A stretch of DNA of 64,000 bases from assembly GCA_021787595.1 (NCBI GenBank), contig JAJYLQ010000005.1:1-64000 (forward strand), written 5' to 3'. The notes below the pieces were generated by a model. That model saw nothing but the letters and a program-made list of their open reading frames with translations, made no database searches and was not told where the DNA came from. This document shows positions 49,696-54,583 of the stretch, in pieces (the first letter of the stretch is position 1; every line of letters begins with the position of its first letter). This DNA comes from Chloroflexota bacterium. GTDB lineage: Bacteria; Chloroflexota; Anaerolineae; Anaerolineales; Villigracilaceae. Both the position numbers and the translations under genes were made by a program.

Positions 49696-49947
49696 TTAGA
49701 GTCCAAGATATTTGTCTATTTTCACGCGGTCGAAGCCGACCACGATCTTTCCACCGATGTCGATCACCGGCACGCCTTGTTGACCGGAGCGGCGCACCAT
49801 ATCGCGGGCGGCAGCCATGTCGCGGCTGACGTCCACGTCTCTGAACTTGATTCCTTTCTCACGGAAGTATTTCTTCGTCATGTTGCAGAACGAACAAGTG
49901 GGGGTGCTGAAAACGATGACGCGCGGTTGGGGTTGGGTTTGATCCAT
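49696..49947 (-). CDS. Glutaredoxin-like protein
   Basis: 83 residues with a thioredoxin fold. The active site is TCSFC (CxxC near residue 18) and the GVPVID cis-proline loop is near 58. It reduces disulfides or glutathione-like mixed disulfides. It starts 33 bp after the promoter motif at 49980-50007 and leads the groES transcript. Confidence 0.88.
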   Translation of the reverse strand: MDQTQPQPRVIVFSTPTCSFCNMTKKYFREKGIKFRDVDVSRDMAAARDMVRRSGQQGVPVIDIGGKIVVGFDRVKIDKYLGL

Positions 49948-49979
49948 TGTTCACCTCTATGCAAAACTTCTACGAAGAA

Positions 49980-50035
49980 TAGATGCGCAAGGGACAAAAA
50001 AGTTGCATGCAACTTTCGGCTTTTTCCGGCATCTG
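49980..50035. promoter_or_regulatory. Divergent ECF-type promoters sharing a palindrome
   Basis: AAAGTTGCATGCAACTTT (49999-50016) is a perfect 18-bp palindrome made of two head-to-head TGCAACTTT -35 elements. Each is followed after exactly 13 bp by a -10: CATCTA on the minus strand (49985-49980) toward glutaredoxin-groES, and CATCTG on the plus strand (50030-50035) toward the thioredoxin operon. The same arrangement occurs before the OsmC operon and the ECF sigma gene. Confidence 0.7.
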
Positions 50036-50040
50036 TATAT

Positions 50041-50300
50041 TGATATACTGAACACGGGCATAAATTGCGCTTTTGTTCAACGGGATTCGGCAAGGGATAA
50101 ATCCCCGCCTCAGCGCATGAAAGTGGCGCCTTGGCGCCACTCGTTGCGCCAGTCCGAAGGCGTCGCCGTGGCGCCATGGCGACAACTTTCACGTACTGAG
50201 CAGGTGGCTTCAGCCCCGCGAATCAAGCGGTAGAAAACCGCAATTTGTGACCGTGCCTGGTATATTATCCGAAAAGGAGTCTGGACATTTCCAATTCAAC
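50041..50300. other. Leader region of the thioredoxin operon with a repeat
   Basis: It holds TGGCGCC-type palindromes (about 50114-50190) that seem to have been inserted between promoter and gene. A TATATT at about 50259 may be a second promoter. No gene is seen. Confidence 0.4.
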
Positions 50301-50819
50301 ATGGATACAAATACTTTCTTCCAGAAGATTCAGAAGAACCCTCGCCCCGTGGTGGTTGATTTGTGGGCACCGTGGTGCGGACCCTGTAAAATGGTCAAAC
50401 CGACTTTGGAAAAACTATCGAAAGAATATGCCGGGCGCGTCGACTTGTGGGAGATCAACGCCGATGACTCGCCTGAACTTTTGCGAAAGCTGGGCGTGTA
50501 CGGAATCCCGACGCTGGTTGTCTTCCGCGGCGGCAGGGAGATTTCGCGGTACGTCGGCGCAAAACCCGCAAACGCGCTGAAGAATTTGTTCGAGACACTT
50601 TCGACCGGCGGCGATCCCGGCCCTGCCGCGCTTGCCGTCAAAGATCGCATCCTCCGCGTTGGCGCTGGATTGGTCCTCGCCTGGATCGGCTGGATCATGA
50701 ACTCAAATTGGCTGTTGTTCATTCTTGGCGGCGCGCTGATGTTCAGCGCGGTGTATGATCGCTGTCCGATCTGGCGGGCGATCACTTCCAAATTTAGAGA
50801 ATTGACCAGCAAAGCATAG
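50301..50819 (+). CDS. Thioredoxin-DUF2892 fusion protein
   Basis: 172 residues. Residues 1-105 are a thioredoxin domain with active site WAPWCGPC and the GIPTL cis-proline loop. Residues about 115-165 hold two membrane helices and YDRCPIW, the pattern of DUF2892 proteins. The fusion would place a thioredoxin on the cytoplasmic face of the membrane. ATG 50301 is chosen; a GTG at 50247 is in frame. It is followed 15 nt later by the methyltransferase gene. Confidence 0.85.
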   Translation: MDTNTFFQKIQKNPRPVVVDLWAPWCGPCKMVKPTLEKLSKEYAGRVDLWEINADDSPELLRKLGVYGIPTLVVFRGGREISRYVGAKPANALKNLFETLSTGGDPGPAALAVKDRILRVGAGLVLAWIGWIMNSNWLLFILGGALMFSAVYDRCPIWRAITSKFRELTSKA

Positions 50820-50834
50820 CAGGAGGAATGGTCT

Positions 50835-51410
50835 ATGAACTTGGATGATCGCCGTTTTGACCATCGCAAGATGGATATGTTGATGGGCGCGGATCGTCAG
50901 GCGAGATGGAATCCATCAGCATTTATCAGCCGCTTCGATATTCGTCCGGGCGCCTCGGTTCTGGACCTGGGATCGGGCCCCGGTTTCTGGACATTTCCCC
51001 TCGCTGACAAGGTCGGCGCGCAAGGCGCGGTTTGGGCGTTGGACATCAGCCAGGAAATGCTCGACGAGCTTTCCCAGCGCAATCCGCCAAAACAAGTACA
51101 TACCTTGCGAAGCGAACTTCCGAAAATTGATTTGCCTGATTCGAATTTCGATTTGATTTGGATGGCATTTGTCTTTCACGAAGTCATGCCGCCGCAAAAG
51201 CTGGCAGACGAAATGTTCAGAGTGGCGAAGGCCGAAGGTGTTGTGGCCGTTCTCGATTGGCGTCCCGACGCGGCCGGTGAAGGCGGCCCGCCGCGCCATC
51301 ATCGTTTATCAATCGAGCAAGTCATTGGATTCCTGCATCAGGCAGGTTTCCAATCCGTCGAGAAAACCTGGCAGGATGGCGACGCGTATTTGATCGAAGC
51401 CCGGCGATGA
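50835..51410 (+). CDS. Class I SAM-dependent methyltransferase
   Basis: 191 residues. Motif I VLDLGSGPGFWTFPLA (about 36-51), motif II ALDIS and WMAFVFHEV are of UbiE/methyltransferase 11 type. The N terminus has FDHRKMDMLMGADRQARWNP, shared by related archaeal and bacterial proteins of unknown substrate. A strong RBS (AGGAGG) and the short gap place it in the thioredoxin transcript. Confidence 0.85.
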   Translation: MNLDDRRFDHRKMDMLMGADRQARWNPSAFISRFDIRPGASVLDLGSGPGFWTFPLADKVGAQGAVWALDISQEMLDELSQRNPPKQVHTLRSELPKIDLPDSNFDLIWMAFVFHEVMPPQKLADEMFRVAKAEGVVAVLDWRPDAAGEGGPPRHHRLSIEQVIGFLHQAGFQSVEKTWQDGDAYLIEARR

Positions 51411-51416
51411 ATTGAA

Positions 51417-51456
51417 CAAAAAAGTGCTGATGAAAAAAATCATCAGCACTTTTTTG
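51417..51456 (+). terminator. Intrinsic terminator after the methyltransferase
   Basis: AAAAAAGTGCTGATG pairs with CATCAGCACTTTTTT, a 15-bp perfect stem. Confidence 0.9.
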
Positions 51457-51464
51457 TAAGTCGA

Positions 51465-51650
51465 CCATCGCCCTGAGCGGAGCGCAGTGAAGTCGAAGGG
51501 CAGACCAAGCCAGCAATTTCGCTTCGACTTCGTGGCGCTGGTTTCGATACGCTCCTTTGCTCGCTACTCAACCATCGCACCACTCCGCTCACATCGTCCC
51601 GACACTTGCACCTGACGCAAGTGCAGGTGTGTCCTTCGGGAGCGCGACAA
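51465..51650. repeat. Compound repeat region
   Basis: Segments such as CTTCGACTTCGTGGCG, GGTTTCGATACGCTCC and CACTTGCACCTGACGCAAGTG match or resemble repeats elsewhere in the window (1346, 3787, 17500, 19605). No gene. Confidence 0.6.
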
Positions 51651-51655
51651 TTTGT

Positions 51656-52249
51656 TCAGTTGCTTTGCGTCAGCAGCGGTGTCACATATTTTTCGAGCAT
51701 GGCGCGGCTGATCGCACCGGTCCACGCGTAACGGACTGTCCCCGTTCGATCAATCACATACGAGTTGGGAAGATTTTGATTTCTGAAAACAGACAGGGAT
51801 GCGTTTTGCGGATCAACCCAAACGTGAAATTTCAATCCATAACTTTGAGCAAATTGCGACACGGAATCCTTCGGCTCTCCGGCTTCGATGGCGACGATCA
51901 TAAAACCTTCCGCTGCGTGTGATTCGTAATAAGCTTCGAGCGTTGGCATTTCCGCTTTGCATGGCGGACACCACGTCGCCCAATTGTTCACCAGCAATAT
52001 GTCCTGCCGGAAATCGGAAAGCGATTCGCTGGTCCCATTCACGTTTTGCAGAACGAGCTGCGGAGCCGGGTAGTTGACCGCGGCCGGCACGACCGACATC
52101 TCATCCGCGGACGGTGCGGAGCCTGATGCGGTGCTGGATCTGGGCCAGAAGATGAACAGCGCGATGCCGATCAGGATCAAGCCGATGCCCATCGCGACCA
52201 GCCCGCTGTTATCCCTTTTTCTTTTTCGATATTTGCCCTTTTGGGTCAT
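51656..52249 (-). CDS. TlpA-type membrane-anchored thioredoxin
   Basis: 197 residues. A basic N terminus is followed by one membrane helix (about 16-36). An AhpC/TSA-like redoxin domain has the active site WCPPC (Cys94, Cys97). It would act outside the membrane in thiol-disulfide exchange, for example cytochrome c maturation or disulfide reduction. Third gene of the osmC-PDO-tlpA transcript. Confidence 0.9.
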   Translation of the reverse strand: MTQKGKYRKRKRDNSGLVAMGIGLILIGIALFIFWPRSSTASGSAPSADEMSVVPAAVNYPAPQLVLQNVNGTSESLSDFRQDILLVNNWATWCPPCKAEMPTLEAYYESHAAEGFMIVAIEAGEPKDSVSQFAQSYGLKFHVWVDPQNASLSVFRNQNLPNSYVIDRTGTVRYAWTGAISRAMLEKYVTPLLTQSN

Positions 52250-52274
52250 GAGGAACCTGCCGATTCGGTGAGCG

Positions 52275-52943
52275 TTATTTCTCGAGGGCGCGTTTGATCT
52301 CTGTCAGCAGGCCCTGTTCCGGTACTGCGCCGACAACCATCTTGGCTCCCGAATTGATCACGGTCTGCGGCACGCCGCTGACGTAATATTCCTGCGCCAG
52401 TTCGGGGAACTCCGTGGCCTCGATGCCTTCGGCGCGAATCATTGCCGGGTTTTCCATTGCCATTTGATGCGCGAGCAGCACGGCTCGCGGGCAGTATGGT
52501 CAGGTAGGTGTGACAAAAACCTGGAGCAGTAATGGTTCGTTCAGGTTCTTCAGGAAATCGCGAACTGCCGGGCTGAGACCGGAGTCGCGGTTGGACACCA
52601 TTAGAATGTCGTTGACAAGAGTGGCGAACTCGTGTCCCGACGGGACGCCCGAAAATTGGATTCCAAGATTCGAAATCTGTTCTCCGTCTTTGGCGGCAAC
52701 CACGAGAGCCGGATATTTGTCAACATGATATCGGTCGGCCACGTTTTTATCGGCTTGAAAATCATAAACTTTCAAGCTGACTTTATCGTTGATGACAACA
52801 ACTTCATCCAGAAGCTGTTGAATCTCCGCACAATATTCGCAGTTCTGGGCGGAACCAAAAAAGAGAATCTGAACCGGCTCTTTCAATTGGGCGAAGGCTT
52901 CGCGGATCTGATCAACGATCTGTTTGTCGAGAAGTTTTTCCAT
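52275..52943 (-). CDS. PDO-type protein disulfide oxidoreductase, possible selenoprotein (in-frame UGA)
   Basis: Read through one TGA (52502-52500), this is a 222-residue protein of two thioredoxin folds, the length and layout of PDO enzymes. The first site is CEYC (35-38). The second reads TPT-stop-PYCP: TGA takes the place of the first Cys of the family's CPYC (residue 148). Right after it the RNA can form a SECIS-like hairpin: 10 nt, stem CGCGAGC, loop CGTGCT, stem GCTCGCG. Family sequence continues in the same frame to the stop at 52275 (GVPQTVINSGAK cis-Pro loop). Selenocysteine is the best explanation; a nonsense mutation or sequencing error is the alternative. Confidence 0.7.
52470..52489 (-). 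promoter_or_regulatory. Candidate bacterial SECIS hairpin
   Basis: CGCGAGC and GCTCGCG form a perfect 7-bp stem with a 6-nt loop CGTGCT, 17 nt between the UGA and the loop. A G in the first two loop positions and this spacing agree with known bacterial SECIS elements. Confidence 0.6.
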
Positions 52944-52952
52944 GTGGTTTTC

Positions 52953-53357
52953 CTAATCGGCGCTTGTTGCAGGCGCGGCCACCTGGGTCGTGATGTCGAA
53001 CTGCGGCGGGTTTTCGAGATGTTTCTTCACCGCGCACAGATCTGCTGAGCGGATGAGCGAGTCGCGATACTTTTCCGGAAAGCTGGGCGGGACCTGGATT
53101 TCGAGATCAATTTTCTCGACCATGCCGGTAAACGGGTTGGCGTGAACGCGCTGAACGATCCGAATGTCATCGGCGGGCAAGCCGCGCTGGCGGCAAAAGC
53201 CCAGCACGTAAATCCCGGCGCAGGTTCCGATGGAGGAAAGGAAAACGGCGAAGGGCGTGGGCGCGCTGGCGGCAGGCGGCTGGTCGGTCGGGACGGTAAA
53301 CCCGCCGAAGTGCGCGTCCACGCGCGAGCCGCCGGGGAAGTCAACGATCATTTCCAT
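52953..53357 (-). CDS. OsmC family protein
   Basis: 134 residues. Conserved redox cysteines lie in SSIGTCAGIYV and DLCAVKKHLENPP, as in OsmC/Ohr-type peroxide-reducing proteins. The position of the first Cys and the GFCRQRGLP stretch resemble the YhfA-like group. It leads the transcript osmC-PDO-tlpA, 9 nt before the PDO gene, and lies 50 bp after the promoter at 53407-53434. Confidence 0.85.
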   Translation of the reverse strand: MEMIVDFPGGSRVDAHFGGFTVPTDQPPAASAPTPFAVFLSSIGTCAGIYVLGFCRQRGLPADDIRIVQRVHANPFTGMVEKIDLEIQVPPSFPEKYRDSLIRSADLCAVKKHLENPPQFDITTQVAAPATSAD

Positions 53358-53706: not shown

Positions 53707-54330
53707 ATGATTAATCCGACACCGCAGGAACTATCGCTCGAAAAACTCCGCGCCGGCGACCGCGCTGAAATGGCCCGCATGGTGGACGTGTTTTCCGCCC
53801 CGGTCTACCGTTTGGGTTTGCGGATGCTTGGCAGCCCACAAGACGCCGAGGATGTTCTTCAGAACACGTTCATGAATGCGCTCACGCATTTGTCCGAATT
53901 CGAGGGACGTTCGAGCATCGCAACCTGGCTGTATCGCATCGCGGCCAACGAAGCGCTGATGTTGATCCGGCGCAGGAAGCCCGAAGTGAACATCGAAGAT
54001 TTGCAGGCCGATGACCCCGATGCCGGGCTGATGCCCACTCAATTTGTAGATTGGAGCGGCCTGCCCGAGAACGAATTGCTTTCTGAGGAAGGAAAGAAGG
54101 CCCTCGATGCGGCAATTCAGACTTTGCCGGAGAATCTGCGAATGGTTTTCGTCATGCGCGATGTCGAAGGGTTGTCAATCAAGGAAACTGCAGATGCCCT
54201 TGGATTGACCGGGACCAACGTCAAAACCCGGCTGCTGCGCGCCCGTTTGCATCTGCGGGAGAGACTGTCTGCCTATTATGCCGAACGCAGCCAGCACCTT
54301 ATTCGTGAGGACAAAAATGATGGATCATAA
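53707..54330 (+). CDS. ECF-type RNA polymerase sigma factor (redox pair)
   Basis: 207 residues. Region 2 is at about 25-90 (MLGSPQDAEDVLQNTFMNALTHLSEFEGRSSIATWLYRIAANEALMLIRRR) and region 4 at about 135-195 (VMRDVEGLSIKETADALGLTGTNVKTRLLRARLHLRERL). It overlaps the anti-sigma gene by 14 nt. The motif found at its own promoter and in front of three thiol-redox operons makes it the likely regulator of that set, in the manner of SigR with RsrA. The start could be 53707 or 53770. Confidence 0.92.
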   Translation: MINPTPQELSLEKLRAGDRAEMARMVDVFSAPVYRLGLRMLGSPQDAEDVLQNTFMNALTHLSEFEGRSSIATWLYRIAANEALMLIRRRKPEVNIEDLQADDPDAGLMPTQFVDWSGLPENELLSEEGKKALDAAIQTLPENLRMVFVMRDVEGLSIKETADALGLTGTNVKTRLLRARLHLRERLSAYYAERSQHLIREDKNDGS

Positions 54331-54583
54331 TCATGTGAATTGCGAAACGTTGCTCGGCTCTTTATCCGAATATATTGACGGCGAATTAAGTCCCGAACTT
54401 TGCCGCGAGATCGAAAAGCATCTTGCCGGATGCGATAACTGCCGCGTCGTCTTGAACACCACCAGGCGGACGATTGATCTCGTTCAATCGCCAGCGGAGG
54501 CGGTCCCCGTGCCCGACGAGGTGCGCGAACGCCTCTTCAAGCGCCTCAACCTCGACGATTATCTGAAGCCGAAATCTCAATAG
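54317..54583 (+). CDS. Small zinc-binding anti-sigma factor (RsrA-like)
   Basis: 88 residues and no membrane helix. CETLLGSLSEYIDGEL is followed by HLAGCDNC, giving a Cys-x(n)-HxxxCxxC ZAS zinc site as in redox-sensing RsrA. Disulfide formation in such proteins ejects zinc and frees the sigma factor. Being soluble, it would sense cytoplasmic thiol stress, which fits the redoxin genes next door. Start at ATG 54317 within the end of the sigma gene. Confidence 0.85.
   Translation: MMDHNHVNCETLLGSLSEYIDGELSPELCREIEKHLAGCDNCRVVLNTTRRTIDLVQSPAEAVPVPDEVRERLFKRLNLDDYLKPKSQ

Follow-up and report, generated by a model that had tools for sequence, protein, structure and literature searches.

Identification of an in-frame TGA at the active site of a disulfide oxidoreductase

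Does the TGA codon inside a protein disulfide oxidoreductase (PDO) gene of an Anaerolineales bacterium end translation, or is it decoded as selenocysteine (Sec)? We analysed the whole 64,000-nucleotide stretch of DNA carrying this gene (the window) together with the host genome (4.08 Mb, 99.6% complete) and homologous loci. The gene runs on the minus strand from an ATG at 52943..52941, with an AGGA motif a few bases 5′ of it, to a TAA at 52277..52275 (Table 1). A preliminary description of this DNA had placed the TGA at the first Cys of a CPYC site, followed in the same frame by conserved family sequence up to a normal stop, and had anticipated that a usual gene caller would split the gene in two. 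Translation with TGA read as U agreed with these points: the TGA is codon 148, the resulting C-terminal UPYC site occupies residues 148-151 of 222, and standard ORF calling broke the gene into 52500..52943 (147 aa) and 52275..52481 (68 aa).

Table 1. Position of the PDO gene, its sequence elements and the associated genes
Feature	Position	Strand	Evidence and remarks
Sec-containing protein disulfide oxidoreductase (PDO), candidate coding region	52278..52943	minus	222 aa with UGA = Sec148; TIGR02187 match, nearest solved structure 1a8l, translated frame
N-terminal domain active site CEYC, residues 35-38	52830..52841	minus	translation and homologue alignment
In-frame TGA, predicted Sec148, first position of UPYC	52500..52502	minus	frame; homologues carry TGA, TGC or TGT only
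Putative SECIS apical stem-loop, CGCGAGC - CGTGCT loop - GCTCGCG	52470..52489	minus	sequence; conserved in Sec forms, lost in Cys forms
OsmC-like protein	52953..53357	minus	Pfam OsmC; directly upstream of PDO, adjoining in some relatives
TlpA/ResA-like thioredoxin-fold protein, hydrophobic N-terminal segment	51656..52249	minus	Pfam AhpC-TSA/Redoxin; downstream of PDO
ECF-type sigma factor	53707..54330	plus	Pfam Sigma70_r2 and r4_2; divergent from PDO here
Zinc-finger anti-sigma factor (zf-HC2)	54278..54583	plus	Pfam zf-HC2; HLAGCDNC = HxxxCxxC motif
selD, selenoprotein candidate	L018:1501-2433 (G000 C35)		TGA in SACAGUASKL; GGCGCAGGTTCTGCGCC hairpin downstream

The sequence past the TGA is constrained and the TGA recurs at one codon

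The two ORFs obtained by standard gene calling are what an ordinary nonsense mutation would leave, with the UGA ending translation and the pseudogene giving a truncated 147-residue protein or none. However, purifying selection past the TGA was strong. When the 74 codons that follow it (stop excluded) were compared with those of a congener with 93% identity (L022), we found 19 synonymous and no non-synonymous codon differences (dN 0, dS 0.52), indicating that translation past the TGA is under constraint at the protein level. The 147 codons preceding the TGA showed 26 synonymous and 16 non-synonymous differences. The pairwise dN obtained with another relative, L030, was spurious owing to a one-codon deletion.

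Alignment of the homologues, as proposed in the preliminary description, revealed that codon 148 was TGA in 33, TGC in 68 and TGT in 33 of the 134 homologous loci, with no other codon at this position. A second TGA occurred in none of the 134 loci. Among 61 relatives searched, 15 of the 33 full-length homologues carried the TGA. In a phylum sample of 400 genomes, 109 had a PDO homologue and, among the matches listed, at least 54 homologue places contained one in-frame TGA, whose position was read for the fetched loci. Homologues in named records at 60-69% identity belonged to Chloroflexota, mostly to Anaerolineales where the order was stated, and TGA forms were also present in records labelled Tepidibacillus and Acidobacteriota. 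The presence of the TGA at the identical active-site codon in many genera, together with the selection described above and a stem kept almost exclusively in TGA forms (see below), makes a pseudogene very improbable. Less probable still is that the TGA is a sequencing or assembly error for TGC or TGT, since the same TGA was found in the 93%-identical congener, which comes from another assembly, and in over 30 further loci, and since the codons flanking it are adapted to a hairpin.

A hairpin downstream of the TGA is retained in Sec forms

The TGA is followed by 10 nt (CCATACTGCC) and then by a stem of 7 perfect base pairs closed by a 6-nt loop, and direct reading of the sequence thus reproduced the hairpin reported initially. 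The published model of bacterial SECIS elements comprises a loop of 3-9 nt, a stem of 4-16 bp, a G within the first two loop bases, a UGA-to-loop distance of 16-37 nt and an MFE of -7.5 or lower (PMC13188914). The PDO hairpin agrees with this model (stem of 7 bp, loop CGUGCU, UGA-to-loop distance of 17 nt), and folding of the 42 nt located 3′ of the UGA gave -15.2 kcal/mol. In single-sequence folding, the stability of the region was only modestly above that of shuffled sequences (z -1.56) and not unusual for its composition, so that the SECIS argument is carried by the comparative evidence. The Rfam model SECIS_1 (RF00031) had no match here, a result that is uninformative because none of 14 control genomes was matched either.

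Comparison of the homologues showed that 26 of the 30 distinct Sec sequences, versus 1 of 93 Cys sequences, had all five core stem pairs intact. The peptide encoded over the stem is nearly identical in the TGA and Cys forms, yet the pairing differs. Moreover, the stem pairs varied between TGA-form genomes (A-T, G-T or G-C); a G-T pair occurred in five TGA forms, and two others (L082 and L099) retained the pairing with different bases, CAAGC/GCTTG. Codon usage followed the same line: the Arg codon in the stem was CGA in 22 of the 28 TGA forms with Arg at that place versus 2 of 26 Cys forms from the same clade, while the CGA share in the remainder of the TGA-form genes was 12%; for CTC as the stem Leu codon the count was 27/32. 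The recurrence of the TGA at one codon across numerous genomes and a stem that is almost specific for TGA forms argue from sequence comparison that neither the in-frame TGA nor its hairpin is due to chance. In a further TGA form (L098), the stem region reads CCAGG/CCTGG instead; these arms can nevertheless base-pair in roughly the same position and are possibly a compensated SECIS.

The host genome encodes the selenocysteine machinery

The preliminary description had named selA, selB, selC and selD as the genes to look for, and the whole set was present in the host genome. It comprised a complete selA (552 bits), selB (343 bits, above the cut-off), a tRNA-Sec that scored over the gathering score and was identified by ARAGORN as tRNA-SeC (anticodon TCA), and selD, which has its own in-frame TGA at the active site. 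Genome-wide reassignment of UGA, for example to Trp, would also account for an in-frame TGA that is read through and would dispense with Sec altogether. This explanation has a negligible probability, the lowest among those considered: TGA was the commonest apparent stop, closing 20 of the 39 window ORFs with at least 250 aa, meaning that it also serves as a normal stop and is not reassigned, the homologues carry Cys rather than Trp at codon 148, and the Sec machinery is complete.

Beyond the host, selA was found in 14 of the 15 genomes with a UGA-containing PDO, in one case in two pieces, and the remaining genome (G016, 88% complete) gave no selA match. The association between the UGA form and selA was not significant (14/15 UGA genomes vs 14/18 Cys genomes, p 0.35), because most Cys genomes keep selA too and the gene is near-universal in the sample. 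The four Cys-form genomes that lack a convincing selA (G042, G046, G047 and G060) agree with expectation. In G037, which has a UGA PDO, the two selA pieces overlap (C6:30365-31518), reflecting a frameshift or an assembly error.

The initial proposal that the CPYC site, here the C-terminal one, carries Sec, with a SECIS hairpin behind the UGA, was therefore strongly supported by the machinery, the selection past the UGA and the retention of the stem, and the gene almost certainly encodes a selenoprotein PDO, whose UGA148 would be read as Sec with hairpin-bound SelB to give a product reaching residue 222. The computed support consists of the gene structure, the Sec machinery, the purifying selection after the UGA, the near restriction of the SECIS to UGA forms and the fold. 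From these we infer Sec insertion itself, the redox chemistry and participation, together with TlpA, in an operon for thiol homeostasis under redox control (ECF sigma/zinc anti-sigma). When a ribosome reaches UGA148, SelB on the hairpin 10 nt downstream would bring Sec-tRNA-Sec, and translation would run on to residue 222. The product would be a tandem thioredoxin-fold oxidoreductase with CEYC in domain 1 and UPYC in domain 2. In the course of dithiol-disulfide exchange, the attack is expected from Sec148, which would then be linked to Cys151 as a selenenyl-sulfide.

The protein belongs to a family of predicted selenoproteins

The protein matched the NCBIfam equivalog TIGR02187 ('PDO_seleno_TRX') over residues 7-218 with 267.2 bits against a cut-off of 185. 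Both of its thioredoxin folds contain a CxxC-type site (CEYC 35-38 and UPYC 148-151), and an AlphaFold2 model built with 22 homologues (mean pLDDT 94.2) was nearest to 1a8l, with a TM of 0.93 and 35% identity over the whole chain. Structures have been solved for related PDOs from Pyrococcus furiosus (1a8l), P. horikoshii, Aquifex aeolicus and Aeropyrum pernix, and for the more distant AhpF N-terminal domains. The archaeal and Aquifex PDOs (1a8l, 1j08, 2ayt, 2hls) likewise consist of two fused thioredoxin folds with a C-terminal site of this type, but that site begins with Cys, whereas the present PDO has Sec there. The AhpF N-terminal domain (5h29, 6il7, 1zyn) shows the same tandem fold, with a TM of about 0.85 to E. 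faecalis AhpF; however, AhpF has a flavoprotein part attached, while the present PDO is a stand-alone protein with Sec. In line with this difference, the AhpF model gave 82.4 against a cut-off of 502.9, and the protein ends at residue 222 without a fused flavin/NADH disulfide reductase part.

The closeness of the AhpF N-terminal domains in fold and sequence, and an OsmC-like neighbour that may be a peroxidase, judging from its family, raise the alternative that this selenoprotein serves primarily as the donor module in a chain that reduces peroxides, as the AhpF N-terminal domain does for AhpC, and not as a general PDO. We consider this role unlikely, although far less so than the explanations without Sec, given that stand-alone PDOs are closer (1a8l, 4.7e-66) than AhpF (1.6e-32 at best), that no flavin domain is fused and that the OsmC-like gene adjoins PDO in some relatives only.

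Sec-containing members of this family have been predicted before. A survey from 2006 tabulated a Sec-containing 'homolog of AhpF, amino-terminal domain' (PMC1794560), and reviews from 2022 and 2026 linked the AhpF N-terminal homolog to TIGR02187 and a UxxC site (PMC9312934, PMC13188914), the latter listing the family, Asgard archaea included, as high-confidence predicted selenoproteins (PMC13188914). These proteins, tabulated as 'Homolog of AhpF N-terminal domain (Grx-like domain protein)', share with the present one the NCBIfam model, a single Sec and the UxxC site (PMC1794560, PMC9312934, PMC13188914); an example is ABB15282.1, which we liken by its description. The tabulated examples that we found came from Carboxydothermus, Symbiobacterium and Asgard archaea, and the present PDO comes from an Anaerolineales host. 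The gene is thus a further member of an already predicted selenoprotein family, and the possibility of an undescribed family was rejected. The earlier view that a UPYC site is not well described in the PDO family holds inasmuch as we found no enzyme study, but TIGR02187 was already a predicted selenoprotein family (PMC1794560, PMC9312934, PMC13188914). A search for papers joining selenoproteins to PDO by name returned nothing relevant, the family being filed under the AhpF name. The present loci add Chloroflexota selenoproteins that standard gene calling cuts in two.

Sec and Cys have been exchanged repeatedly among close relatives

On an unrooted tree of 124 homologues, mostly from Anaerolineae with a few rows from other phyla and with codon 148 masked, the Sec/Cys label required 20 changes by parsimony, 10 of which are forced by the well-supported branches alone. 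Sister pairs included L034 (Cys) with L038 (Sec) and L075 (Cys) with L078 (Sec). Of the two stem arms, the Cys member L075 retained only the left (CGAGC), and the Cys member L034 only the right (CTCGC). These half-stems look like decay following the loss of Sec, a direction suggested by sequence on an unrooted tree. Sec/Cys sister pairs with similar operons, in which selA is often kept either way, constitute a natural experiment on the retention and loss of Sec.

A recurrent, possibly redox-controlled operon contains PDO

A gap of 9 nt separates the stop of the OsmC-like gene from the PDO ATG, and both genes are probably co-transcribed. Downstream of PDO, 21 Sec and 28 Cys loci had TlpA in the same orientation. 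A co-oriented ECF sigma factor preceded PDO in 20 Sec and 24 Cys loci, including most Sec relatives, and 43 of these 44 relatives had an HxxxCxxC motif in the interval from sigma to PDO. In the window, the sigma/anti-sigma pair (53707-54583, plus) is divergent, while in many relatives it is on the same strand, just 5′ of PDO and TlpA. With SigR/RsrA-type systems as the basis, we infer that PDO would belong to a thiol-stress regulon, in which it may reduce the zinc anti-sigma factor.

Our search of the open-access literature turned up no account of the Anaerolineae forms, of their Sec/Cys exchange pattern or of this operon. The frequency of Sec/Cys switching among close relatives and the recurrent ECF sigma/zinc anti-sigma/PDO/TlpA operon are thus the part that we did not find described. 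We give about even weight to the idea that Sec/Cys exchange has a hot spot in the Anaerolineae PDO (10 changes or more, perhaps 20), which lies within this operon, through which selenium status could feed into redox gene control.

A cluster of thiol-redox genes occupies positions 49696-53357 of the window and comprises a glutaredoxin (CSFC), a thioredoxin fused to a YgaP-like membrane segment, the TlpA-like protein, PDO and the OsmC-like protein.
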